In this document: piece by piece, positions 1 to 37,010 of the stretch | Numbering within the stretch: position 1 is the first letter of the stretch | Layout: each line of letters starts with the position of its first letter | Assembly: GCA_030429445.1 (NCBI GenBank) | Contig: JAUIFG010000001.1 | Span: 1-64,000 of the forward strand | Source: a bacterium | Lineage (GTDB): Bacteria; Patescibacteriota; Saccharimonadia; Saccharimonadales; Saccharimonadaceae | Direction: 5' to 3' | DNA: 64,000 nucleotides | Notes under the pieces: generated by a model | Database searches by the model: none | What the model was told of the DNA's origin: nothing | What the model saw: the letters and a program-made list of their open reading frames with translations, nothing else | Program-made: the position numbers and the translations under genes

Positions 1-2542
1 CAACGCCTATGATGGGAGTACTTCCAGTTTTTCTGTTGTATAGGTTGAAGTAGGTAACAGGGTTTGCTTCTGGCGTGATACGAATCATGTCTGCACCGCT
101 TGTGGAGTCTTTGATTGTATTTATGTTGGGTGTGGTGAGGGTTTTGTTGGTGAGGGTTTGAGTGCTCGAAACAGTAGCAACATCAACACCGTTTTCTTGC
201 AGGGTACCAGTACCTTGTAGTTCGAAGTTAAAGCCTACGTTGGTGTCTGCTCCTGCAATGTCCCAGCCAGCGTTACCGGATTCTTGCCAAGACCTTATGG
301 TACCCGTGCCTTTGCTTCGCAGTTGGAGGTCTACGTTGGCGTCGGCTCCTTGTGCTTGAATGGTGGGGGTGTTACCAGCAGTGGCATAGATTTGGAATTT
401 GCCGGTGCCTTTGGGGTTTATGGCAAGTGATATGTTCGTATCTGTACCAGCAGCGTAGAAAGATGGCGTGCCTGAAGCAGAGGCATTCTGAATGCGCACA
501 TAGTTGACAGCGGACGCTGTTGTAGCTAAGTCAAGAATGGCTACGTTATTTGCATCTCTAATCTGATTGATCTTGGGGTTATTGATTACACCATTTTCTG
601 CTCCCGCAAGTCGATGCCAACTTGTTTCGTCTGTGCGAAGAACATAAGCACCAGTTCCCGAACCATCACCAGAATCAGTAAACCTCACGATATCACCGGT
701 CGTCCAGTTTGCGGCATCTGGTGTCTCGGCATCTGCAGTCTCTTCGCCAAAACCATTGACTGAATCAACACCACTATAAGCGGACCCTACAGTACCAGAA
801 ACAATTGGATGCCCGTCAACGACAATATTTGCCCCAGATGAGCTGACTGTTACTGCGTTATCCATAGTTGGTGAGCCTTGATCATCTAATGCAATCAATC
901 CACTGATCGTTACATTATTCGCGGTACCAGAAACCCGCACCCCAGAACGTTCACAGTTATCGACAACAGCTCCCGAAATCGTTACATAGGAGCTAGAGTC
1001 TGCAATCCTAATACCATCACTTGCGCTGTCACCAGTGCCGTTATAGCAACCGCCACTTATACTGACAGCCTTTGACGCCTCACTGACAGCAAGTCCCGCG
1101 CCAGCACACCCAACCGCCGTGTTAGCACCAAATGCTACCCGACGGACATTCTGTGCCGTAAGACCCGTGCCTGCATGGTCCATACAAACGTTGCCGCTTA
1201 CAACAACATCCATTGGACCCTCCACCGAACCACTTGAGCCAATGCGAATACCGTTGATACCATAGGCAGTTGCATTGCCCGTGACGGCGATACGGCCAGG
1301 AGCTCGGGTGTTGTTCATTGGGTCATGGCGTACCACGATATTGTCATTAGAGCCACGAACTGTATTCCCGCTTATAACGCTGAAGGTCTTTGCATCTTCA
1401 TCATCGGGCAGTGTTTGAATAAAAGGTTCAAAAACAATACCTGTCTGTACACAATCGTACACATTATTGCCTGTAACTGAAGCATGCTTGGCATGAATGT
1501 TAATGCCTTCATAAGCAGCCGAATACACGTGGTTATTATGTACACCAAGATCAATGTGCCCCACTGCCGCACTGCCCATTTCCGCACACCAAATACCCAC
1601 CAGTCCTGCAACTTCATCGCCAATGCCCGTACGATCACAATCGATTATGTTGTCGATTACTTTCGCATTACGAGTATTATTCATAAAGAAACCATTATAA
1701 GAACATGCCTCGAATCGACATTCACGAATCTCGGGTGAGTCAATCGAGCCAGCCCCGTTATTATATAGCCTGATCCCCCAGCGCCATCGCTCGAAACGGA
1801 CGCGACGTGCCTTGAAGCGTTCAATATTTACGGTACTGTGCAGATTGACACCGACACCATTGCCGGATCTATCACCTACGTCGGTTGATGCTCCTCGCAT
1901 CCTCATATCTTGAATCACAAAATCATCTATTGCGGTTCCCACCCATTCAAAAAGGTTGTCATCACTAATGGTTGGTGCAGTGAAATCAATATACGTTCTT
2001 TCTCCGGCGCCACTAATGCACACATTACCTTTTACGGTGATAGTTGAGGTAACTTTATAATCTCCAGCAGGTATAAAGACGACGGAGTATGATTCGGTAC
2101 CTCCTCCATCACCTGAGGCATCAATTGCCGCCTGTATAGCGGCTGTGTCATCAGTCACGCCATCACCGACTGCGCCATAATCCTTGACGTTGTATACAAG
2201 TTCGCCCTTTGCAACTTTACCGTCCAATGCGGTCTGCGTAGCAGTAGATATCGGCTTATTGGCATCACTTGTGTTATCGAGATTACCTAGTCCTACATCC
2301 GACTTTGTTAGGGTGACATCGCCCGTTCTACTCGCAACACTCGTGACAGGTGCAACGGTATTGAGCTTTGTTTGGACGGCGCTAGCTAGCTGCGCCTCCA
2401 AGATGGAGCCATCTTGTATTTCAGCACCAGTGACGGAATTAGCCTTGAGCATCCCGTCACTTTTGTGTGACTGTGATAGATATTCATTGAGAATATCTCC
2501 CCAAGTACCATTATCACTGCCAGGTACCGGAAGACGAGCCAT
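1..2542 (-). CDS. Large beta-helix surface/tail-spike-like protein (3' end outside window)
   Basis: Open frame of about 847 codons with no stop down to the left edge, so the C-terminus is missing. Residues 1-38 are the module MARLPVPGSDNGTWGDILN... shared with the proteins starting at 29825 and 37010. Next comes a phage tail-fibre-type stretch (GDVTLTKSDVGLGNLDNT, about residue 75), then a Pectate_lyase_3-type entry (VKDYGAVGDGVTDDTAAIQ, about residue 120) and many beta-helix rungs rich in SGN/ITGN turns. The distal part has repeats of the GTGTI...ADANVDL type and the tail-fibre motif TQTLTNKTLTTPNI. There is no signal peptide. The start overlaps the upstream stop (TAATG), implying translational coupling to a membrane protein. 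Adhesin or glycan-binding function is inference. Confidence 0.85.
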   Translation of the reverse strand, partial: MARLPVPGSDNGTWGDILNEYLSQSHKSDGMLKANSVTGAEIQDGSILEAQLASAVQTKLNTVAPVTSVASRTGDVTLTKSDVGLGNLDNTSDANKPISTATQTALDGKVAKGELVYNVKDYGAVGDGVTDDTAAIQAAIDASGDGGGTESYSVVFIPAGDYKVTSTITVKGNVCISGAGERTYIDFTAPTISDDNLFEWVGTAIDDFVIQDMRMRGASTDVGDRSGNGVGVNLHSTVNIERFKARRVRFERWRWGIRLYNNGAGSIDSPEIRECRFEACSYNGFFMNNTRNAKVIDNIIDCDRTGIGDEVAGLVGIWCAEMGSAAVGHIDLGVHNNHVYSAAYEGINIHAKHASVTGNNVYDCVQTGIVFEPFIQTLPDDEDAKTFSVISGNTVRGSNDNIVVRHDPMNNTRAPGRIAVTGNATAYGINGIRIGSSGSVEGPMDVVVSGNVCMDHAGTGLTAQNVRRVAFGANTAVGCAGAGLAVSEASKAVSISGGCYNGTGDSASDGIRIADSSSYVTISGAVVDNCERSGVRVSGTANNVTISGLIALDDQGSPTMDNAVTVSSSGANIVVDGHPIVSGTVGSAYSGVDSVNGFGEETADAETPDAANWTTGDIVRFTDSGDGSGTGAYVLRTDETSWHRLAGAENGVINNPKINQIRDANNVAILDLATTASAVNYVRIQNASASGTPSFYAAGTDTNISLAINPKGTGKFQIYATAGNTPTIQAQGADANVDLQLRSKGTGTIRSWQESGNAGWDIAGADTNVGFNFELQGTGTLQENGVDVATVSSTQTLTNKTLTTPNINTIKDSTSGADMIRITPEANPVTYFNLYNRKTGSTPIIGV

Positions 2543-3018
2543 TACCGCCTTGGGGTCCTCATTGTTAGAACATCGTAGAGTGCATAGATAATACCGGCGG
2601 TAATTATAAGCGTCGTGTTATCAGAGAGGAATGTATAGATCGAAAAAGCCGTATCATCAACTGTTGGATCTAGATTGAGCGCCATACCAAGTGGCCCAAG
2701 CAAAAATGATGTCGCTAATAATGCAAAAATCCCAGCCCCAATCAATCTTTGTAGGCGTTTCGTATATGTCGGACCACTAAATAACAAAAGCACCGCAGGA
2801 GCAAGCACTAAACCAGCCGCCACCAGACTAGAGAGTGGGGGAGACAACAATTCAAAACCTGCACCGCGAATAAACGGTGTCACTTGCGCTGTCCACATTT
2901 CACTAATTAAATAACCCGCACAGAGTGCCAGACCCAAAACGCCAAAACGACGCCGGGTGACATACGTCATGGCGAATAATGTGGCAACGATAGCGATGAT
3001 AACTGCAACGAGGGTCAT
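2542..3018 (-). CDS. Polytopic membrane protein of unknown function
   Basis: 158 residues with about five hydrophobic segments (roughly 1-17, 26-42, 63-82, 92-112, 133-150) and short loops; an N-terminal TRRR patch suggests a cytoplasmic loop. No family recognised. It starts directly after the DUF192 stop (TAA then ATG) and its own stop shares one base with the start of the beta-helix protein. This makes it the middle member of a tightly coupled trio, and it may serve the export or anchoring of the downstream protein, which lacks a signal peptide; that role is inference. Confidence 0.75.
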   Translation of the reverse strand: MTLVAVIIAIVATLFAMTYVTRRRFGVLGLALCAGYLISEMWTAQVTPFIRGAGFELLSPPLSSLVAAGLVLAPAVLLLFSGPTYTKRLQRLIGAGIFALLATSFLLGPLGMALNLDPTVDDTAFSIYTFLSDNTTLIITAGIIYALYDVLTMRTPRR

Positions 3019-11324: not shown

Positions 11325-11534
11325 TTATCTACCGAATTTACTCGCACCAAAACCAGTGGTTGTTTTCTGCGCCAAAACGCTCGTTCTCTTTGACTGATTT
11401 GATGAACGAAGTAAATACGAAAGGACATTGCCTGCCCCAAACACAGCCAATAAGCCTACGCCAAATGCCCGTAAAAAATTCTGACGAGTCATCTTTTGAT
11501 CAAGCAACTCTTTTATCTGTCCCGTGTCCGCCAT
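11325..11534 (-). CDS. Small single-span membrane protein
   Basis: 69 residues. A charged N-terminus with KMTRQNFLRAFGVGLLAVFG precedes a hydrophobic stretch (about 21-40) and a Ser/Thr/Lys-rich tail. TRQNFLR resembles a twin-arginine motif with the second Arg replaced by Gln, so Tat export is possible but not supported. -10 TATACT ends 11 nt before the ATG. Function unknown. Confidence 0.7.
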   Translation of the reverse strand: MADTGQIKELLDQKMTRQNFLRAFGVGLLAVFGAGNVLSYLLRSSNQSKRTSVLAQKTTTGFGASKFGR

Positions 11535-11584: not shown

Positions 11585-12640
11585 CTAATTATTTGACTTT
11601 GACTTACGACTTTTCCCTCGTCGAAAAGCCAGATAAAGTTTACGGAGAATCATTACAATACCCGCAGCAAAAACCGCAAAGACTGCAAAGGCCACAAGAG
11701 CGATCCTCCAAGGAAACACCCAAAAGGTAGCCGTCCGCTCTATGGGAACGTCGCGCATTCCGTCATTATAGACGGCAATGAGCTTGGCTGTGTACTGCCC
11801 TATGCGAAAATCAGTTAATTTCGACCAGTCCCAATTCAAGTCTTCTTTTTCTTCATTGCCACTAACAACTGTTTCATACACCGGAAAGCCATCTGCCCAA
11901 TCACTGTCTATAACTCGCGAGCTGCCTGGTATGATATAGCCCCTCACATCGTTCACGGGGAGTGTCGAAATCGATTCTGCATCACTAGATCCTCGCTGAA
12001 TAAAGACATTGCCAAACGGTTGCACGATAACATTGCCTGTATTTTTGAACTTTGCCTTGAACCTGACTGGCAAGTACTCATAAAAAGATTGCGTCGCTTT
12101 AAAACTTGTCACCTCCAATTTGCGCACGGCACCGGGTCGATCAACATTCAAAAGGGTAAAGATTGCCACGGAACCTGCAATCGTATTGCCAGATTCTGCT
12201 TTGTCAACAACTGTACGGCTAATTACAAAGGCAAATGAATAACTAAATCCGGTGTCAGCTGGTAAATCAATCGTGATTTCTTGAGTCTGCCACTCTCCTG
12301 GCTTGATAGTAAACGTCGGGTCGCTATAGCTAATCCAATCGGCAATTTCCGCTGGAGAATTATCGCTTAAATCTACCGCGCCAGTTTCTTCGTCAATCTT
12401 AAAACTTCTCGTCTCAATCTTGAGCGTATCAGTGGAAGTTCCGATATTCTTAACCTTTAATTCTAGCTTTGATTGAACCCCGGGTTGAATTGTCGCTACG
12501 AGTGGCGAAGGCGTAACTTGTACCGAAAATCCACTTTGTTCAGACTGCGCACTCACCATGGGCGAGGCCAGACTTATCATTGTTAACGTGGCAACACTAC
12601 CACTCCAAAAAAATACTCTCTTCAGCCACGTTTTTATCAT
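11585..12640 (-). CDS. DUF916-like secreted, membrane-anchored beta-sandwich protein
   Basis: 351 residues: signal peptide (about 1-31, cleavage after VSA), two Ig-like beta domains (FSVQVTPSPLVATIQPG and FKNTGNVIVQPFGNVF as typical strand motifs), one C-terminal membrane segment (about 310-333) and a basic cytoplasmic tail (RRGKSRKSKS). This is the architecture of DUF916 / WxL-interacting proteins of Gram-positive bacteria. The WxL-like protein at 13731 is transcribed just upstream in the same direction. The -10 TATAAT (12648-12653) is 7 nt before the ATG (leaderless). A paralogue lies at 15378-16241. Confidence 0.75.
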   Translation of the reverse strand: MIKTWLKRVFFWSGSVATLTMISLASPMVSAQSEQSGFSVQVTPSPLVATIQPGVQSKLELKVKNIGTSTDTLKIETRSFKIDEETGAVDLSDNSPAEIADWISYSDPTFTIKPGEWQTQEITIDLPADTGFSYSFAFVISRTVVDKAESGNTIAGSVAIFTLLNVDRPGAVRKLEVTSFKATQSFYEYLPVRFKAKFKNTGNVIVQPFGNVFIQRGSSDAESISTLPVNDVRGYIIPGSSRVIDSDWADGFPVYETVVSGNEEKEDLNWDWSKLTDFRIGQYTAKLIAVYNDGMRDVPIERTATFWVFPWRIALVAFAVFAVFAAGIVMILRKLYLAFRRGKSRKSKSNN

Positions 12641-12690
12641 TAGGGTAATTATACATACCCCTCTTTACTATGGCAAAACACTTGATCGTT

Positions 12691-13731
12691 CTAGAACAGA
12701 CCTGCACCAGTTACGGTAATTACATCTGTGTAATCCGTAGCAGCGGGAGTTATTCCAGAGATTGTCACCTTGTTCGTCAATGTCAATACCGCAGTATCTG
12801 CCGTGCCATCAGATGTTGCAAGCGAACGAAGTGATGCATCCAGAGCACCACCATCATTGACGCCAACGCCATTAAAAGCAGCATTAACAGTAACCGTACC
12901 AGCCCCAGCGACTTGTGAACTAGTAATGCCCAGTACATACCCCTCCGTTCCTGGCGAGAGTGTCAAGTTAGAACCGGGAGTTGAAGATATAGTATGGGAT
13001 GTGTTCGCAGAGGTTAGCCCAACCGTATCCTTTCCCCATACCTGCCAGCCAGCATAAGCGTTTGTATTAATGGTAATGGTTCGAGGAGTAGGACTCGTCG
13101 TTACAGAGCTAGTACTCAAATCCCCCAACGAATCTGAGTTAGCACTCAGCGCGAATGCAAAAGCTGGAGGAACGGTCGCTGTAACATTAATCGTACTATC
13201 TGACACAGTAGCAGCGGCAAACTCTGCACTCTCGAGTAGTGTCGGATTGGAGTCGTACAGCGCTACAAGCCCATCAGCATATGTACCGGGGGTTGCATTT
13301 GTTGTAACGGCTGCAGTATTTGTCCAATTAAAACAATAGGTGGTACCGGCAGACAGAGTAGTGCTTGGAAATGTCACCTCCTGAGAAGTAACATCCGTTG
13401 CAGTACCGATACCTGGCCACGCACTGGCACCGGATGGCCACGCAAGATTAGTTGTATTGACAGTGAAGTTACCAGCTACGCCCAAGGTGTAGCCTGTCGG
13501 AAACGTCACATGCACAGAGGCCTCTGTATTTGATTGATTCGTCTCTGCACAAACCGTACCTGTCGTTGCCGTGTTCGCTGTGATGTTATCGAATCGCACC
13601 ATGACATTTGACATAGCAGCACTTGCGATACTCACACCAAACGGTGATACGATAACACCAAAGACAAATACCAATACTAACACAGAGAGCTGTAACCTCT
13701 TGACCCTCTCCACAATTAGGCGTTTTGTCAC
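12691..13731 (-). CDS. WxL-like secreted surface protein
   Basis: 346 residues: signal peptide (basic start, hydrophobic 15-36, cleavage near ASA), Thr/Ser/Asn-rich beta repeats with a Cys pair, then a C-terminal domain with AYAGWQVWGKD, GTEGYVLGI and the ending AATDYTDVITVTGAGLF. That ending parallels the 14824 protein and resembles WxL domains. No membrane anchor, so it is probably held by another wall or membrane protein, the DUF916-like neighbour being the obvious candidate. GTG start with AGGATG upstream; promoter TTGTGC-17-TATACT (-10 at 13764-13769). Confidence 0.68.
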   Translation of the reverse strand: MTKRLIVERVKRLQLSVLVLVFVFGVIVSPFGVSIASAAMSNVMVRFDNITANTATTGTVCAETNQSNTEASVHVTFPTGYTLGVAGNFTVNTTNLAWPSGASAWPGIGTATDVTSQEVTFPSTTLSAGTTYCFNWTNTAAVTTNATPGTYADGLVALYDSNPTLLESAEFAAATVSDSTINVTATVPPAFAFALSANSDSLGDLSTSSVTTSPTPRTITINTNAYAGWQVWGKDTVGLTSANTSHTISSTPGSNLTLSPGTEGYVLGITSSQVAGAGTVTVNAAFNGVGVNDGGALDASLRSLATSDGTADTAVLTLTNKVTISGITPAATDYTDVITVTGAGLF

Positions 13732-13799
13732 AAATTCATCCTCACCTATTATCTACTGCTCCCAGTATATCCAAAGCCCTTCACAAGCACAAGCGTCTA

Positions 13800-14795
13800 T
13801 CACCTGTGAAATAAGTGAAATTTACCAAACTTGTGACGATGCAGGTGTCGACCATGTTCCAAATACCATAAAAATACTAATGTCGAGAAAACACCGATAT
13901 ATATCTGCCATATATGCTGTTGGATAAAAGCTACAAACGGAGGTACTTGATTATAATGACTGTCAAGCCCTAGCCCAAAACCATTTGGCAACAAATAAGT
14001 GACAGCAACCGTTTGTAATTCTGCTGTTTGCCCCGCATTATCTCGTATTTCTATGGATATGTCGTATGTCCTTGTAGCACTATAGGTATGTGTATATGCG
14101 TGTTCTTTACGATCTGAAATAGAGTACGTGTTTTTTGTTCCATCGCCCCATTCAATACTCACTATATAGGGTAACTCTCCAGTAATGATCTTAAATTTTA
14201 ATACCACCCGACCATTGGATTGCAATGGCACAAAGTTCTGCGTTGAAATAACCTGAGGTAATAAATGAGGGTTACTGATTTGATTGGTCGATAGGCTTGG
14301 GGACTTGGCCGGCATGGGGCGGGTAAACATCACGGGTGCACTTGTCTGGCCTTCGTCATCCGTGATCGTCATGACAGTTGCAACTATAGTATGTTTGCCA
14401 TATCCAAATGTAGCCACAACAGAGAATGTTCCCCCAGCCGTACACTGTGTCGATCCACGCAATGTTGCCTTCTCATATATAACAACGATAATTGCAGGAG
14501 TAACAACCGGACATGTACCCTTGATCTGTACGTTTTGTGATGCAACTTTTATATTGTTAGTCGGACTTGTAATTACAGGTGCTTCAGTGGGGATTAACGC
14601 TGGAACAGTTGCAGAAACACTGAGATCGAGCGCGCCTGCTCGAAGATTCTCAACAAACGCCATCATTGCAATAGGCAATAACATCAGCAAAAAAAGCACT
14701 CGATAGGATGTGTGTTTGTGAGCGAGTATTTTACCTGTGTGTTTATGGTGACGCAATTTGAGCGTCTTGCGAACTGATCGATGAATGGACTTCAC
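13800..14795 (-). CDS. His-rich membrane protein with Ig-like and PKD domains
   Basis: About 331 residues. A His/Lys-rich cytoplasmic N-terminus (RHHKHTGKILAHKHT), a membrane segment (about 38-58), an Ig-like domain (APVITSPTNNIKV... ATLRGSTQCTAGG), a PKD domain (VSIEWGDG... HTYSATRTYDISIEIRD), a second membrane segment and a His-rich C-tail (HGRHLHRHKFGKFHLFHR). I place the start at GTG 14795, 6 nt after -10 TATACT (14802-14807); the frame stays open upstream but runs into the divergent gene. The His clusters might bind metal; function unknown. Confidence 0.7.
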   Translation of the reverse strand: MKSIHRSVRKTLKLRHHKHTGKILAHKHTSYRVLFLLMLLPIAMMAFVENLRAGALDLSVSATVPALIPTEAPVITSPTNNIKVASQNVQIKGTCPVVTPAIIVVIYEKATLRGSTQCTAGGTFSVVATFGYGKHTIVATVMTITDDEGQTSAPVMFTRPMPAKSPSLSTNQISNPHLLPQVISTQNFVPLQSNGRVVLKFKIITGELPYIVSIEWGDGTKNTYSISDRKEHAYTHTYSATRTYDISIEIRDNAGQTAELQTVAVTYLLPNGFGLGLDSHYNQVPPFVAFIQQHIWQIYIGVFSTLVFLWYLEHGRHLHRHKFGKFHLFHR

Positions 14796-14801
14796 TCTGG
14801 T

Positions 14802-14811
14802 AGTATATAAT
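14802..14811. promoter_or_regulatory. Overlapping divergent -10 elements
   Basis: Plus-strand TATAAT (14806-14811) and minus-strand TATACT (14807-14802) share two bases. They serve the WxL-like gene starting at 14824 and the PKD protein starting at 14795. Only 28 bp separate the two start codons. Confidence 0.75.
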
Positions 14812-14823
14812 ACAATAAGCGTA

Positions 14824-15381
14824 ATGGAAAAAATCACCATACAAAAAAAGCATCTGTCCTGGGCATTTTTCGCTCTTATTTTTTGCCTATTACTACAACA
14901 ATCAGCATATGCATCGCCTTTTGGCCAAGGAGAATTTAATGCCGATGTACCCTTTGGATCGGAAACAAGCATTGCCATGTCTTTTGATGGCGACGTAGCA
15001 TTTACCCTCTCGCCCGATGGTGAAAACTTCAGCGGCCAAGGATCACATACCGTCACTATTACATCTAACGATGTCGTGGGTTACAAGCTCTATGCACTTG
15101 CACCATCCGGCACGTCAATGAGTAGCGGTTCTGCAACTATCCCGGCTAGTGGTCACAGTAGCCCCTCTTTGCTGGCTGTTAACACATGGGGTTACAACAC
15201 TGACGGATCATCAAATTATGTTGGCATACTGACGACTCCATCACTCATCAAGGATGCTGATGGACCCTACAAAAATGGCGATAACACTACCGTCTATTAC
15301 GGTGTAATCACTGACATCACTCAAGCTGCCAGTGATTACACCGTCGATGTCACATATACAGTCGCCGGTGAATTCTATTAG
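14824..15381 (+). CDS. Small WxL-like secreted protein
   Basis: 185 residues: signal peptide (about 1-30, cleavage after YAS), then one beta-rich domain with VVGYKLYALAP, LAVNTWGYNTDG and the ending AASDYTVDVTYTVAGEFY, matching the ending of the 12691-13731 protein. No anchor. ATG 14824 is chosen because the next upstream ATG is in the divergent promoter. Its 3' end overlaps the convergent DUF916-like gene by 4 bp, giving a second WxL-like/DUF916-like pair. Confidence 0.72.
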   Translation: MEKITIQKKHLSWAFFALIFCLLLQQSAYASPFGQGEFNADVPFGSETSIAMSFDGDVAFTLSPDGENFSGQGSHTVTITSNDVVGYKLYALAPSGTSMSSGSATIPASGHSSPSLLAVNTWGYNTDGSSNYVGILTTPSLIKDADGPYKNGDNTTVYYGVITDITQAASDYTVDVTYTVAGEFY

Positions 15382-16241
15382 GATTTATGTCGATGGCGAG
15401 CACGCTTGTTTTGCCAAAACCACTTTATAATAAATAATACGAGCACGAGAGCAGCGAGTGACCATGGCGGAATATATATAATGTACGTTGTTTTGACGAC
15501 CTCATTATCGGAAACATCTGTTTTATATCCATACGTCATTTTGTATAGGCCAGGAAAAAATGGCGCTGGGATTGATCCGCCCACCGCCCTGATCGTACCC
15601 GGCAGCAACACGTGACCAACGCCAACCCTGGGTTGGTCGTAGAAAAACCCTTCTAATTGTCCGTAGAAAAATGCACCATAGTGAACATTGCCAGTATTCT
15701 TCACATTAAATGTATACGGTATGGTGCTGTCATAGACAAAAAATGGCACAATATCATCTGTGATACTGCCAGTCCTCGTTAATTTACCATCCACACTTAA
15801 ATAAAGCAGCGATGTCACGCGTGCCACCCGCTTTACTACCGCACCAGACATATCAGCACTTGCAAACAATGCAAAATAATAACCCCCAGGTGACGTAGTA
15901 TTCGGAGCATTAACCGTAAAGTTGACTTTTTTATCTTGTCCTGGCCCTAGCGTAATATACGTTTTTTCGAAAACTATCCAGTCCTTTACCGGAGTAGTAA
16001 ATTGATAGTCATATACATAGTCAATGGCCGAAAATTGCTGAACAGAAAGATTCACTGTTAACTTGTCGTCCGTATAGTTTGCCACTCTAATTGCACCCTG
16101 GGTTAATTTACCCGCAACGACCGTCATCTCTTGGCGCACGGGCGCCACAGCAAGACCTGTGCTGTTTGGCTCTTTGGCATGAGTAACTAGTGGAATAGAC
16201 GTGACTACCAAAATTGCAAGAATAATTCTAAAAAATCGCAT
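15378..16241 (-). CDS. DUF916-like membrane-anchored protein (paralogue)
   Basis: About 287 residues: signal peptide (hydrophobic 6-20, cleavage near THA), beta-sandwich domains (GLAVAPVRQEMTVVAGK, FTVNAPNTTSPGGYYFALFA, FNVKNTGNVHYGAFF), one C-terminal membrane segment (WSLAALVLVLFIIKWFW) and the tail KRARHRHKS. Same plan as the 11585-12640 protein. -10 TATAAT (16251-16256) is 9 nt before ATG 16241 and 3 nt before ATG 16247, so 16241 is preferred. Likely partner is the WxL-like protein encoded convergently at 14824. Confidence 0.75.
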   Translation of the reverse strand: MRFFRIILAILVVTSIPLVTHAKEPNSTGLAVAPVRQEMTVVAGKLTQGAIRVANYTDDKLTVNLSVQQFSAIDYVYDYQFTTPVKDWIVFEKTYITLGPGQDKKVNFTVNAPNTTSPGGYYFALFASADMSGAVVKRVARVTSLLYLSVDGKLTRTGSITDDIVPFFVYDSTIPYTFNVKNTGNVHYGAFFYGQLEGFFYDQPRVGVGHVLLPGTIRAVGGSIPAPFFPGLYKMTYGYKTDVSDNEVVKTTYIIYIPPWSLAALVLVLFIIKWFWQNKRARHRHKS

Positions 16242-16300
16242 GCTCATCCTATTATAGTCGTGACGGGCGAGATACTGAAAATTCAAATGCTGGCTTAGTT

Positions 16301-17368
16301 CTAGGTAATACTAAAACCATCAATAGACCGAACGGGGCGAGACGATGGCATTCGGCGAGAGACTGATGGTGCGTCAAAAGATGATGGTCTCTGAGGTATG
16401 ATAGAAGCCATCGAAACAGGACGTCTCGTTGAAGTCTGAGCTGTAAATCCATCAAGAGATCTTTTGGGTGCTTGTTGGATAGCTGCAAAAGCAGGCTGAG
16501 GCGCTGGAATAGAACGAGGTTGTTGTTGCTGTTTTTGCTGAGATATTTTACGTATCAACCTCTCCTGTCTGACTGCCCTTGCCGCTAATTTACTTGCCTT
16601 TCGTGAACGCAAACGGTGCCTGACAAAAACGGCAAAAGCCCCGATTTGATACACAGCAATAATTGGTACAGCAATGATAGCCATATTCATGGCATCAGGC
16701 GTTGGCGTGATGATTGCCGCAGCGACAGTCGAACCGATAACCACAAAGCGTTGTGTTGATGATATCCCCCCGGGAGGAAATGGTCGTATGTGATCAAACA
16801 AGAAAAGTAAAAGGGGTATTTGAAACAAAGCGGCCAAGCCAAGCACATACGCTACAACAAAACCAAGGTATGAATCGGCAGTCAAATTGGGAGTGACGGT
16901 ATCGCCCGCAAATGTTGTCAAAAAATTTAATGCTGCAGGAATCGCAACAAAATAACCAAATAACGTACCCGTTGCAGCGAGTAGACCCGACAATGAGATA
17001 AATATAGCAACAAATCTACGCGATGTTTTTGCCAAAAGCGGTTGCAAGAAACGATACAGGTGATAAACAGCAACTGGGATAGTTAGCAGTGCGCCAAAAT
17101 AAATACACAGTGTAAAAATGAAGCTAAAACCACCACCAGGCGTGAGGTATACCAACTGCTCGCCTTTCAGCGGAGCCATAATAACACTAATGAGCAAATC
17201 TTTGATCTGATAGCCAACGGCTGACGCAATGATAAGCGTCAGCACAACCCAAAACAATCTCGAACGAAGTTCGTAAATATGCTCTAGGAATGTCAGCTCG
17301 TTCGTCTGTTGACCGCGACTATTTTGAATCGTCTTTGCTGGTCGATTTGCTGCTTCCCTGTTTCTCAT
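16301..17368 (-). CDS. tatC: Sec-independent protein translocase TatC with long C-terminal tail
   Basis: 355 residues. TatC core about 24-250 with LTFLEHIYELRSRLFWV, six membrane segments and TPTPDAMNMAIIAVP. Typical TatC proteins are about 250 residues; here a basic Gln/Pro/Ser-rich tail of about 105 residues follows (KQQQQPRSIPAPQ, RRPVSMASIIPQRP). It starts 50 bp inside tatA in another frame with AAGGGG 7 nt upstream, so it is coupled to tatA. Together they form the folded-protein exporter; no clear RR-signal substrate is in this window. Confidence 0.92.
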   Translation of the reverse strand: MRNREAANRPAKTIQNSRGQQTNELTFLEHIYELRSRLFWVVLTLIIASAVGYQIKDLLISVIMAPLKGEQLVYLTPGGGFSFIFTLCIYFGALLTIPVAVYHLYRFLQPLLAKTSRRFVAIFISLSGLLAATGTLFGYFVAIPAALNFLTTFAGDTVTPNLTADSYLGFVVAYVLGLAALFQIPLLLFLFDHIRPFPPGGISSTQRFVVIGSTVAAAIITPTPDAMNMAIIAVPIIAVYQIGAFAVFVRHRLRSRKASKLAARAVRQERLIRKISQQKQQQQPRSIPAPQPAFAAIQQAPKRSLDGFTAQTSTRRPVSMASIIPQRPSSFDAPSVSRRMPSSRPVRSIDGFSIT

Positions 17369-17501
17369 TGCTCATCCCCTTGCGTAATTCTTGCATGGAC
17401 TGACCAACACTGCGTGCGAGTTCTGGTAGTTTTCTACCCCCAACCAATAGTAGAACAATTAGCAGTATAATAACTAGTTCTGGAGCACCTATTCCAAACA
17501 T
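17319..17501 (-). CDS. tatA: Twin-arginine translocase subunit TatA/TatB
   Basis: 60 residues: short N-terminal membrane helix (PELVIILLIVLLLVGG), the hinge GGRKLPELARSVG, an amphipathic helix and a Ser/Lys/Asp tail. Only one TatA-type gene is seen, as in minimal TatAC systems. GAGGG precedes the ATG. The last 50 bp overlap tatC. Confidence 0.92.
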   Translation of the reverse strand: MFGIGAPELVIILLIVLLLVGGRKLPELARSVGQSMQELRKGMSNEKQGSSKSTSKDDSK

Positions 17502-27830: not shown

Positions 27831-29342
27831 TTAACTGCCATCCCATGAATTTAATACTCGAAGTGATGACCATGGGATGTGAACCATGTCAAAATAATCC
27901 CATTCAAGTCCTGCATCAACATACACTTGCCCTGGCTCTGAACCATCATCAACGTATTCAAATATAAATGCCATCCGTGCACCACCTTTATCACCACAAT
28001 ACGCTCCATATTTTTGCAACGCCTTGGCAACTGCGATTTCTCCTTGTGTAATACCCGGTATTGCCGCCACATCAATTGATGGGTCAAGCTGAACTCTCGC
28101 ACCTTCAGGAATTGGATTCGACACCCCCGCTCCATTGTCACCATCCGTTTTACTTGCAGGATAGCGATAGTCCGTAGGATGAGTCATGTCACTACTAAAG
28201 AAAAGTGCGTGTGGAATTTCGCCCGCAGCAATTTCGTGCCCACGAATAACTGCCGCATAGCGGGATATATTGGTCGCCGTAGAGCTGCCCGACGTTTCTC
28301 GACCATCACCATGCAAACTAGCGACACCACCCCATGATGCACTCCATCCACCAGAATTAGTTGCTTGCCATAATGAATACACCTTACTAGTCGTGGGGTC
28401 AGCGACACTGATATGGCCATCACTACCTGGCGGCATTACTGTCCCATCTGGTATTGGCATGGAGTCACTTCCAAAAGGATCAGAGCCCCATGCTGGTTCA
28501 TTAGCAAATGATACATCGTAACGAGGCGTGTCGGAGGTAATACCCGACTGCCCCGCAAGCGTTACACCAAATTCATACAAATTAGCACTCCGATGCTCAC
28601 CTCCAGCTGTTTCAGCAAGAGAGACAACTATGGCAGCCGAGTCTGGATCAAGCACAGGACTATCTGGTATAGGCGACCAAAGCCAATCAGCTGTATCAAA
28701 ATAATTTCGTGAAATGATTGTTCCCCCATCAATCGCACCCATCGGTAAATGACCGACGTGCCAACCTGACGAGTACACAGGTGGTGGTACGGGTAAGTTA
28801 AGATTATCAAAGATTGCCACACCCGGTGATGGTTCCACTCCCCAAAATCCTGACATCATATATAACTGCACCGATGAAAAATCAAGAGTCGTAGTCTTAC
28901 TCCGTCGCGTTGTCCAGTTAATAGCATCTGATGATGTATCCCAATATACAATGCCGCCATCCTCGCGAATTCGCAGCCACCTATGATCTGTAGCATTATA
29001 TGTCATTGACGTGTCGCTATTGCTCGATGCAACGCATTCACGAAATATCATACTTCCATCATTCGCTTCAAAAGTGACGAAATTATCACTATCAATCCGC
29101 ACTCCAAACTGAACACTGATACTGCCATTGCCTGCATTGGCATTTTGTATAAACTCAACCAATACATAAGATGCCGTGAGCTCATACTGAGTATTTGTGA
29201 TTAAAATTGGATAGCTCGCTACAGGCGAGAGAAGTAACTGGCCACTTGATACCACTGGACTATCAGCACCATATTCACCATACCCCCACCAAGTAGATGA
29301 CTCAGTCGTAAAATTATCAGTAAAGGTGTTCGCCTTTGCCAT
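27831..29342 (-). CDS. Large secreted-type beta protein with LamG-like N-terminal and conserved C-terminal domain
   Basis: 503 residues, no signal peptide. Residues 1-185 look like a concanavalin/DUF1349-type sandwich (WWGYGEYGADSP, FGVRIDSDNFVTFEA, RWLRIREDGGIVYWD). About 195-503 is a second domain with PEGARVQLDPSIDVAAIPG, VAKALQKYGAY and IPWSSLRVLNSWDGS, which I associate from memory with actinobacterial secreted proteins (not verified). It lies 6 bp after the short MARLP-module protein, so the two are co-expressed. Polysaccharide binding or cleavage is possible; no catalytic residues are identifiable. Confidence 0.72.
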   Translation of the reverse strand: MAKANTFTDNFTTESSTWWGYGEYGADSPVVSSGQLLLSPVASYPILITNTQYELTASYVLVEFIQNANAGNGSISVQFGVRIDSDNFVTFEANDGSMIFRECVASSNSDTSMTYNATDHRWLRIREDGGIVYWDTSSDAINWTTRRSKTTTLDFSSVQLYMMSGFWGVEPSPGVAIFDNLNLPVPPPVYSSGWHVGHLPMGAIDGGTIISRNYFDTADWLWSPIPDSPVLDPDSAAIVVSLAETAGGEHRSANLYEFGVTLAGQSGITSDTPRYDVSFANEPAWGSDPFGSDSMPIPDGTVMPPGSDGHISVADPTTSKVYSLWQATNSGGWSASWGGVASLHGDGRETSGSSTATNISRYAAVIRGHEIAAGEIPHALFFSSDMTHPTDYRYPASKTDGDNGAGVSNPIPEGARVQLDPSIDVAAIPGITQGEIAVAKALQKYGAYCGDKGGARMAFIFEYVDDGSEPGQVYVDAGLEWDYFDMVHIPWSSLRVLNSWDGS

Positions 29343-29348
29343 TCCTTA

Positions 29349-29825
29349 CTAACTCCACAATACATCAACAATTACACCAGTTGCGGGTGTTGTCGAACCA
29401 ACTGAGGTCACATTTAACCGCAACATATCACCGATATTCTGAGCTTGCGAAAAACTCACTGTTGATTCAATTATGCTTCCGTCCGCAATCGATACGGTAC
29501 CGATTGTTGACCATGACGATCCATTAAAATGTTGCACCTCTGCTGTAAGTGCCGAATCGACCGGTGCGCTTGCCGTACGCATACGAGCGCCCACAAGTGT
29601 ACGAGCCACATACGCACGATCTGTTGGTGTAACCCCTAGTAACGCGGTTGCTGCTGAAAACTGAATAGGCGCATTAAATTTATTTTTGACGGTATTGGAA
29701 AGTGATGCCTCGGTGATGGAACCTTCCTTAAGCGTGCCGTCACTTTCGTGAGCCTGTAGCAAATAATTGTTGAGAATATCCCCCCAACTTCCATTATCGC
29801 TGCCAGGTATTGGTAATCTTGCCAT
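29349..29825 (-). CDS. Short MARLP-module protein with tail-fibre-like C-terminal domain
   Basis: 158 residues. Residues 1-38 (MARLPIPGSDNGSWGDILN...) are the module shared with the proteins at 2542 and 37010. The rest is a small beta domain (FNGSSWSTIGTVSIADGS, MLRLNVTSVGSTTPATG) like phage tail or receptor-binding domains. No signal peptide. It is followed after 6 bp by the 503-residue protein, suggesting a two-component surface structure. GAGG lies unusually far (about 17 nt) from the ATG. Confidence 0.78.
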   Translation of the reverse strand: MARLPIPGSDNGSWGDILNNYLLQAHESDGTLKEGSITEASLSNTVKNKFNAPIQFSAATALLGVTPTDRAYVARTLVGARMRTASAPVDSALTAEVQHFNGSSWSTIGTVSIADGSIIESTVSFSQAQNIGDMLRLNVTSVGSTTPATGVIVDVLWS

Positions 29826-34754: not shown

Positions 34755-37010
34755 TTAATCAGCCTCACAAATCATATAATGCGCAATAACTTCAATAACG
34801 CCAGTTCCATTAAAATTACCGCCCGTTGCCGTTACCACTACGTTCTGTTCAGAGGTATAAAGCACACCTGCAGCTCCTGTAGCGGTAAAGCCCGCAGAAC
34901 CGCTAGCGGCACCAGTAGTTACAGATTCTACTGTACCCCACAAGTCATCATCCAACCCATCGCCTATTGTATAGCCTGTTACACCAGAACTGGTTCCTAG
35001 TGTAGTATTGATTCTCGTTGTCACGCCTAAAAGTAGCGCACCATCAGGGATTAGACCAATCGCAGTCACCGACGCCCCCGACACTGACGATAGAATAGCT
35101 TTTGCCTGTCGCCAAGCACTGCGCTGATAATACGCAGATGACTTTGCTGAGGTGCCGCTATTAACATAATCAGCTGAAATATCTCGAACAATAGCATTAG
35201 TACCGTTGGTTAAGACTGCACCATCAAACCTATTATTGACGACTATTGTTCCCGAAGACGCAGTATTCTCTAACAAAGAGTACGTCGAAGATGAAACGGT
35301 TGCATTGTTAGTGATGAAAGTGTCCACGCCTATAGTGACATTGATTGCTATAGATGCCGACTGGAAATGATTGCCAACAATATGCGCCCGAGTTGCTGCA
35401 TTAACCCAAACACTGTTACTTGCAACATTCTTAAAAGTATTGCCTGATATCAAACAATCAGCTCCATCGATACGAACACCATGAGAACCTTGTCCATCAA
35501 ATATGTTACCCGAAACCACACAATTAGTACTTATAATTTGAATACCAATTGTCGAGTTTCCAATAATCACGTTACTAGATACTACACACTCCGCCGAAGA
35601 GACATAGATAGCAAGAGTTCCACCAGATATGAGATTACCCGAGACAATACATCGAGTGGCAAGAATGTTCATGGCGTATGTAGTGCCATTAGTGATAGTG
35701 TTGTTGTTCACCACAGAATCAACCCCGGTAGATGCAACCTGTAGTGATACGGCCGTGGCCCCGCGAACACTATTACCATTGATAGACGCTCGTGGACCGA
35801 CAATAAGTATTCCGCTACTTCCACAATTATGAAATAGATTGTTTGAAACCGTCAGATCAGCGCAATCAGCGTCATCTAAAATACCCGAAAGACTAGCCCC
35901 AGTACAATTATTTCCGATGAACTGAGTGCGCTCAGTATTTGTACACCGAAGAGACCGTTGACAGCCACTAATAGTGTTGCCTTCGACGATATTTTCATTG
36001 GTATCCTTGATGTGAATACCAAAGTCCGTACAATCACGAATGACGTTGCCGACAATCGTATTATTACCTCTGACTCCGATGAGGACACCAGATTGATAAG
36101 TATCAATACCCGAATCGCCACAACCGACAATATTGTTTCCAGTAACTGTCGTAAAGGACGAACCATCCGATAAATGAATCCCCGTATTGTTACTGCCGAC
36201 AACCACATTCCCGACAACCACATTCCCGATAGATTCCATAGTTTGGCTACCGCCAATATTAATGCCGTCGTCTTCGCAATCTTCAATTAGACAATTCGAG
36301 ACAATGTTATTCACACTTCCGGTTAGTAGGCAGAAGCCATCATAGCCAAGATTCTTGGCGAGTACATTGTGAATCAAGCTGTTATCAACAATGTAAAACT
36401 GGACACCCCGCTGATTCGTCTTCCCGCTATCCGAGTCACCAAGCACTTGCAAATCACGAATGACTAAGTTTGACGCACTCACCGCTAGGATAACAGGGTA
36501 GTCCGACACTGTCTTGAGGATCGTAGCAGAGCGTCCCGCCCCCATAAGGGTAACATTAGAGTTATCGAGTCTGATCGAGTTAGAGACCACGTAAATCCCT
36601 TTCGGTATAAAAACAATACCACCACCAGCTGAATCGCAGGCATCGACCGCCGACTGAATTGCTGCAAGGTCATCAGTAACCCCGTCATGGATTGCACCAT
36701 AAGCTGAATCAGTAACATCAAATAAAGGCTTGCCTGATATGAATTCCCATTCTTGCGAACTAATCATATTAAGTTTGGTTTGTGTCGCAGAATCAAGCAG
36801 AGCCTCGGTGATTGAGCCATTAGCTACATTAACAGAGTTAATGCTGCCTGGAGCAATAGTAGTTGCGGTAACGGCATTGTCCTGTAGTTGAGTAGCTCCG
36901 ACTGAATCCCGCTTTAGGGTTCCGTTGCCCTCATGAGACTGTGAAAGATAATCATTGAGAATATCACCCCACGTACCATTATCCTGGCCAGGCCTAGGCA
37001 GACGAGCCAT
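34755..37010 (-). CDS. MARLP-module right-handed parallel beta-helix protein
   Basis: 751 residues. Residues 1-38: shared module MARLPRPGQDNGTWGDILN. Then a helical linker (NAVTATTIAPGSINSVNVA), a Pectate_lyase_3-type entry (DSAYGAIHDGVTDDLAAIQ near 105) and about 25 rungs with repeated ISGN/VVGN/IVGN turns (about 130-640). The C-terminal domain (about 655-751; GVTGYTIGDGLDDDLWGTV, VVVTATGGNFNGTG) resembles phage tail-fibre ends. No signal peptide and no obvious catalytic residues. Monocistronic, with promoter TTGTAA-16-TATAAT (37090-37117) and AGAGG before the ATG. Likely a surface glycan-binding adhesin or tail-spike-like protein. Confidence 0.85.
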   Translation of the reverse strand: MARLPRPGQDNGTWGDILNDYLSQSHEGNGTLKRDSVGATQLQDNAVTATTIAPGSINSVNVANGSITEALLDSATQTKLNMISSQEWEFISGKPLFDVTDSAYGAIHDGVTDDLAAIQSAVDACDSAGGGIVFIPKGIYVVSNSIRLDNSNVTLMGAGRSATILKTVSDYPVILAVSASNLVIRDLQVLGDSDSGKTNQRGVQFYIVDNSLIHNVLAKNLGYDGFCLLTGSVNNIVSNCLIEDCEDDGINIGGSQTMESIGNVVVGNVVVGSNNTGIHLSDGSSFTTVTGNNIVGCGDSGIDTYQSGVLIGVRGNNTIVGNVIRDCTDFGIHIKDTNENIVEGNTISGCQRSLRCTNTERTQFIGNNCTGASLSGILDDADCADLTVSNNLFHNCGSSGILIVGPRASINGNSVRGATAVSLQVASTGVDSVVNNNTITNGTTYAMNILATRCIVSGNLISGGTLAIYVSSAECVVSSNVIIGNSTIGIQIISTNCVVSGNIFDGQGSHGVRIDGADCLISGNTFKNVASNSVWVNAATRAHIVGNHFQSASIAINVTIGVDTFITNNATVSSSTYSLLENTASSGTIVVNNRFDGAVLTNGTNAIVRDISADYVNSGTSAKSSAYYQRSAWRQAKAILSSVSGASVTAIGLIPDGALLLGVTTRINTTLGTSSGVTGYTIGDGLDDDLWGTVESVTTGAASGSAGFTATGAAGVLYTSEQNVVVTATGGNFNGTGVIEVIAHYMICEAD

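Follow-up and report, generated by a model that had tools for sequence, protein, structure and literature searches.

A shared N-terminal module of tail-spike-like proteins in Patescibacteria and its proposed export on a small Tat-type carrier

Three genes in the 64,000-nucleotide window analysed here encode proteins that begin with nearly the same ~35 residues and continue as tail-type bodies, which raises the question of what so constant an N-terminus is for, and of how such proteins could reach the surface of a bacterium that is probably an epibiont of other bacteria. We propose that the shared segment, called the module below, is a docking tag for twin-arginine translocation (Tat), through which its bearers would be exported piggy-back on a shared, membrane-anchored carrier; we put the probability of this reading at roughly two in three. 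The module genes of the window, with the gene that follows one of them, are these:

34755..37010, minus strand: module protein of 751 aa, with the module, a linker, a beta-helix tail-spike-like body and a low-confidence C-terminal part
36894..37010, minus strand: putative docking module of the 751-aa protein (its first 39 residues), an extended MARLPxPGxDNGxWG stretch and then a short helix
2..2542, minus strand: module protein of at least 847 aa, open at the contig end, with a Pect-lyase/beta-helix body and LTNKT tail-fibre repeats
29349..29825, minus strand: module protein of 158 aa, first gene of a two-gene operon
27831..29342, minus strand: tail-like protein of 503 aa with neither module nor signal; its gene follows the 158-aa module gene after 6 bp

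A sequence-only reading of the window had described three genes with near-identical N-termini, and all three are present at the coordinates listed; the alignment of their first 39 residues has 24 invariant columns, with 72% identity to the first sequence. The other copies of the MARLP type in the same genome (G000; 826 kb in 13 contigs, 97.5% complete) match with E-values of 1e-12 to 7e-17 over about 45 residues, so the sharing is not due to chance. The genome has six members rather than three: the three of the window, which lie on contig C4, and those at C6:109221, C3:17883 and C3:29368 (more divergent); it holds both of the module types distinguished below, MARLP and QRLP. Signal peptides had been said to be absent, and within residues 1–60 the complete module proteins indeed have no hydrophobic stretch of signal-peptide strength. 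The module itself gave no match in Pfam, in PHROGs or among PDB chains.

The first base of the window is also the first base of contig C4, so the gene running leftwards from 2542 is cut and its body is incomplete. The three bodies had been called unrelated; that of the 158-residue protein does differ, but the other two belong together, since the proteins of 2..2542 and 34755..37010 match each other over about 440 residues (E 1e-24, module included) and are both Pect-lyase_RHGA_epim/Beta_helix proteins in Pfam. The module-less tail-like gene behind the 158-residue gene had been missed; its product matches phrog_14065 (E 1e-20) and the minor tail family phrog_17388 (E 4e-11).

The beta-helix body of the 751-aa protein spans about residues 85–570, and matches Beta_helix (E 3e-29) and Pect-lyase (E 4e-15) in Pfam and a tail spike family in PHROGs (E 5e-24). 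Its AF2 model (overall pLDDT 57) has a module helix at residues 13–25, a body with pLDDT of 60–93 and a poor C-terminus; Foldseek matches to the model include mannuronan (AlgE) epimerases, phi29 gp12, the Sf6 and CBA120 tailspikes, and many viral tail proteins and fibres. Pfam search of 97 module proteins found the pectate-lyase-like beta-helix (11), DUF5907 repeats (10), Beta_helix (6), phage lower-baseplate BppL_N (5), GDSL lipase (4), two instances each of DUF2961, collagen, phage tail repeat and a chitin-type carbohydrate-binding module, and single cases of phage tail or depolymerase domains. PHROGs matches of module proteins are chiefly to minor tail, tail fibre and tail spike families. 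The bodies resemble receptor-binding proteins that bind or cleave glycans, and seem to have come from phages. DUF2961 is family GH172, some members of which are reported to cut mycobacterial D-arabinan (PMC10115798); bodies of this family fit actinobacterial hosts, which is only a hint. Genomes with the module have 1–20 module genes with many kinds of body, which strongly supports the earlier proposal that a constant short N-terminus, serving for anchoring or assembly, is reused on different receptor-binding-like bodies.

Given beta-helix and other tail-type bodies that match PHROG tail families, the module proteins could be particle fibres (prophage, tailocin or contractile injection), and the module does occur in viruses: Streptomyces phages BRock, GiJojo and relatives carry it (E 1e-5 to 8e-3), in GiJojo on a pectate-lyase body, and a single viral contig that also has portal and terminase-like genes encodes it. 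However, no phage particle genes (capsid, portal, tube) adjoin the window members, and members are scattered among housekeeping genes, the window module pair adjoining ftsH and murJ, and rpoB/rpoC lying between two members on C3; moreover, the presence of the module tracks TatC (below), not phage genes. The prophage or tailocin reading was rejected on the absence of particle genes beside the members, and we consider particle fibres of any of these kinds very improbable. As to the earlier comparison with phage or injection-machine fibres, the phage link is supported, the module being shared with Streptomyces phages, while an injection machine is probably not involved, given the housekeeping neighbors. 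Module proteins resemble phage tail spikes and fibres in joining a short constant N-terminus to variable beta-helix, lipase, collagen or lectin-like bodies; unlike them, they are encoded by single chromosomal genes beside housekeeping or Tat genes. The module genes of the Streptomyces phages (L076:11381-12337 and L077:12407-13894) lie within a tRNA gene cluster, away from capsid genes. No module was found on plasmids.

The membrane protein at 2542–3018 had been suggested as a partner of the module; it is not conserved beside other module members. Neighborhoods of module genes yielded a different candidate, which we call the carrier: tatA, tatC, a small ORF and a module gene follow one another at one locus (L048), and a small ORF precedes module genes at others (L072 among them). 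The corresponding genes of the source genome are:

11325..11534, minus strand: candidate carrier of type B, 69 aa, with a TRQNFL Tat-type motif, one membrane helix and the C-terminal tail GFGASKFGR
C6:50350-50535 (L146:4324-4581): second candidate carrier of the genome, of type A
16301..17368, minus strand: tatC, 355 aa with a C-terminal extension (PF00902, E 1.5e-45); E15 is kept and the E103 position is Ser
17319..17501, minus strand: tatA (PF02416, E 6e-14)

Carriers (67 distinct sequences) are about 67 residues long: a charged N-terminus and the motif [TDS]R[KRQ]xFL are followed by one membrane helix, and the conserved C-terminal tail reads G[FY]Gxxx[FY]G. A tail of the form [FYS]Gxxx[FY]G is found in 63 of the 67; among 5864 other short ORFs only 8 have one. 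The first arginine of the signal is invariant and its F and L are kept; the second position is K in 40, R in 11 and Q in 8 of 64 carriers, and the RK or RQ of most carriers is non-canonical for Tat. Distant carriers read SRRDFLK exactly and have weak Pfam TAT_signal matches. The carriers showed no recognisable signal peptidase site, and no carrier was found in phages. A single detected carrier may accompany many module genes: 20 in the 1.2-Mb genome G502, 15 in G559 and 13 in G457.

All ten carriers tested match NCBIfam NF038009 (TatB_1, 'twin-arginine translocation system-associated protein') over nearly their whole length, with E-values of 1e-7 to 4e-17 (2e-10 for the window carrier); all, however, fall under its curated cut-off of 100 bits, the best carrier reaching 62, and the name of the family implies no link to tail-like proteins. 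Most carriers are beside tatC, and the operons of these genomes show TatA and TatC. On these grounds the small protein might belong to the translocase in the manner of TatB, recognising the module as a new kind of Tat targeting signal. We think this unlikely: the motif and layout, from a charged N-terminus through R[RKQ]xFL and a membrane helix to a short polar tail, fit a Tat signal and not TatB, large bodies carry the same signal as a fusion in two genomes (G542 and G439), some genomes have two or more carriers beside different passengers, and the module has no hydrophobic stretch.

We examined how the three parts are distributed in an even sample of the phylum (380 genomes) and in a sample of the class (230 genomes). 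The module is present in 21 of the 380. All 21 also have the carrier and TatC; at the cut-off used, one carrier genome lies beyond them. In the class sample, 65 genomes have the module, 64 the carrier and 68 TatC; 62 have module and carrier, 64 carrier and TatC, and 64 module and TatC, with module alone in 1 and TatC alone in 4 for the last pair (Fisher p 8e-51; pairwise values of 1e-49 to 1e-52, all of which ignore kinship). TatC is found wherever carrier and module occur together, in 64 of 64 carrier genomes and 64 of 65 module genomes. The carrier went undetected in three module genomes (G420, G406 and G492), and G492 also lacks TatC.

Because the Fisher values ignore kinship, comparison was also made inside genera. 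Each of six genera (g2, g6, g8, g10, g11 and g315) contains some genomes with the full set and others entirely without it; in one g2 genome the carrier alone went undetected, and two g8 genomes whose TatC is truncated or diverged have neither carrier nor module. All three parts being patchy in the class, they might also be retained together by lifestyle, with no joint function. COX1, a respiratory gene that is itself patchy, is present in 58 of 161 genomes, and 32 of those 58 are module-positive, which is above average; it nonetheless tracks the module far less well than TatC does. The module–TatC link persists among the 58 genomes with COX1 (32 with both, 25 with neither, 1 mismatch; p 1e-15), and a plain lifestyle correlation was rejected by this test. 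Lifestyle would also hardly explain the near-perfect nesting, the tight synteny, the matched types or the loss of E103 (below), and we find co-retention without joint function scarcely credible.

Carrier and tatC are on one contig in 61 genomes, at most 700 bp apart in 46 and at most 6 kb apart in 53. The carrier is often directly upstream of module genes; 33 such adjacent pairs were found, in many of which the gap is -3 to 30 bp, and in the pairs a signal-less protein is encoded with a partner bearing a Tat-type signal. In the window itself carrier and module genes are not adjacent, and share only the genome. The 33 pairs also match by type: 13 of 15 modules of the QRLP...KEH...NGGH type stand behind carriers ending in [KR][FY]G+1, and 0 of 14 MARLP modules do so, being behind other carriers (p 2e-6, a value that ignores shared ancestry although the types form lineages). 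Both carrier types occur at L048, L067 and L068, and at L048 each precedes its own module type; the source genome likewise has one carrier of each type, A and B. Exceptions to strict matching are likely: G345 has modules of the QRLP type, yet its complete carrier is of type A.

Two genomes, G439 and G542 (the latter with TatC but no module), have the carrier signal fused to a repeat-rich body of about 350 aa. The fused bodies have no Pfam match and no PDB relative by profile, and an AF2 model has repeated short strands at pLDDT 47, with none of the structure matches listed being significant; a beta-helix is therefore likely rather than proven. None of 133 module ORFs combines carrier signal and module in one protein. 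Behind the membrane helix the fused proteins (L253-L255) share AAT and an EPENG...ASGxxAIKFG stretch; this resembles a carbohydrate-binding module, with no Pfam match.

TatC of the class has a C-terminal extension of about 100 residues (about 350 aa in total); other CPR TatCs are about 245 aa and lack it. At two loci (L268 and L269, of G549 and G571) TatC is cut at the contig end or N-terminally diverged, and carrier and module are lost. For a survey of the E103 position, 63 TatCs were aligned with what we take to be the sequence of E. coli TatC. That sequence agrees at H12, L13, E15, F94, Y100 and E103 with the published account, in which E15 meets the first arginine of the signal and E103 the second (PMC13323110). 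E15, H12 and F94 are kept across the aligned TatCs. E103 is present in the seven CPR TatCs that have no carrier, in those of three genomes with SRR, TRR or TKR carriers, and in that of G542. The remaining TatCs, about 50, have lost it, and each of them either comes from a genome with carrier or module or is a decayed copy. G542 is an exception, keeping E103 although its signals read RK. The loss of E103 together with the relaxed second arginine of the carriers suggests that carrier and TatC are physically tied.

On the docking-tag reading, the carrier of about 67 aa would keep an uncleaved Tat-type signal anchor and expose its C-terminal G[FY]Gxxx[FY]G tail, which would bind the module of a tail-spike- or tail-fibre-like passenger in the cytoplasm. 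The signal-less passenger would fold there and then cross the membrane through TatA/TatC, often with a second, module-less tail-like protein of the same operon travelling along, and would stay outside on display, held by the membrane helix of the carrier. One or two carriers per genome would serve up to 20 passengers. Tat would suit tail spikes, since these fold in the cytoplasm. The want of a recognised cleavage site in carriers, whereas the fused proteins share AAT after the helix, and the conserved motif near the C-terminus would also suit a carrier that Tat inserts purely as a membrane anchor, with passengers leaving the cell otherwise and docking onto its tail from outside. This would take a second, additional exporter for very large signal-less proteins, and an N-terminal module, often encoded right behind the carrier gene, suits cytoplasmic assembly; we hold docking from outside to be quite unlikely.

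Piggy-back export through Tat has precedent in hitchhiker complexes, in which a signal-less folded partner crosses bound to a subunit with a Tat signal, as with E. coli HybO-HybC and PaoABC (PMC4273604). The docking-tag reading likewise has a signal-less passenger cross on a Tat-signal partner. There, however, each signal subunit has one fixed enzyme partner, whereas here a carrier of about 67 aa, with no catalytic domain, apparently takes many unrelated passengers by means of one tag.

Module proteins may in turn carry further subunits along, because module genes are found in operons with tail-type ORFs. Downstream of 64 of the 97 complete module genes with room there, a same-strand ORF of at least 100 aa begins at -120 to 80 bp. 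On visual inspection the majority look signal-less and tail-type, and some have Mtd_N or GDSL domains. The arrangement of a module gene with a tail-like, module-less gene is found in about half of module genes elsewhere. We propose that the 503-aa product of 27831..29342 is such a second passenger, carried by the 158-aa module protein.

To our knowledge, host recognition by Patescibacteria is little understood beyond type IV pili, and it is not known what their Tat systems export. The present analysis gives concrete candidates for both, in a shared carrier, a portable tag and a list of passengers of up to 20 per genome. If the docking-tag reading is correct, Tat secretion would here be modular, with new binding proteins added by fusing a 35-residue tag; signal recognition in a Tat variant would have changed in step with its substrate; and phage tail spikes would have been made into cell-surface tools by bacteria living on bacteria. 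The bodies may serve contact with host bacteria, and the module proteins could make up a repertoire of host adhesins. More tentatively, a dedicated Patescibacteria branch of Tat, with a TatC lacking the pocket for the second arginine, might act as a general display system, in which one anchored carrier exports whatever protein has the 35-residue tag. On this view the tag was grafted onto a changing set of phage-derived receptor-binding proteins, which would supply these epibionts with a repertoire for host recognition. For the saccharibacterium Candidatus T. rhizospherense, tatBC were reported, with substrates mostly unknown (Starr 2018, PMC6031116); substrates were sought there with a twin-arginine finder, and the available part of that report describes no carrier–passenger system.

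Between the carrier and tatC, the window has a cluster of secreted-protein genes (11585-16286), whose products include WxLIP-like, Fn3-like and PKD-like proteins and one with PFGQGxFxADVPFG; gene order is similar at L043, L067, L068 and L145. This cluster may belong to the same surface system.

Across 84,980 species, one genome each, a scan with a single conserved peptide pattern found 36 module loci, nearly all from Saccharibacteria or bacterial MAGs, plus one Mycolicibacterium contig (M. agri NZ_PDCP01000087.1). On this contig a segment of about 0.8 kb (L049:7450-8250), with a GC fraction of 0.51 against 0.60-0.66, has a surface-type gene with YGxGxYG, a frameshifted carrier and a truncated module gene, with mycobacterial genes on either side. 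It represents either transfer from an epibiont to a host-type genome or a chimeric assembly.
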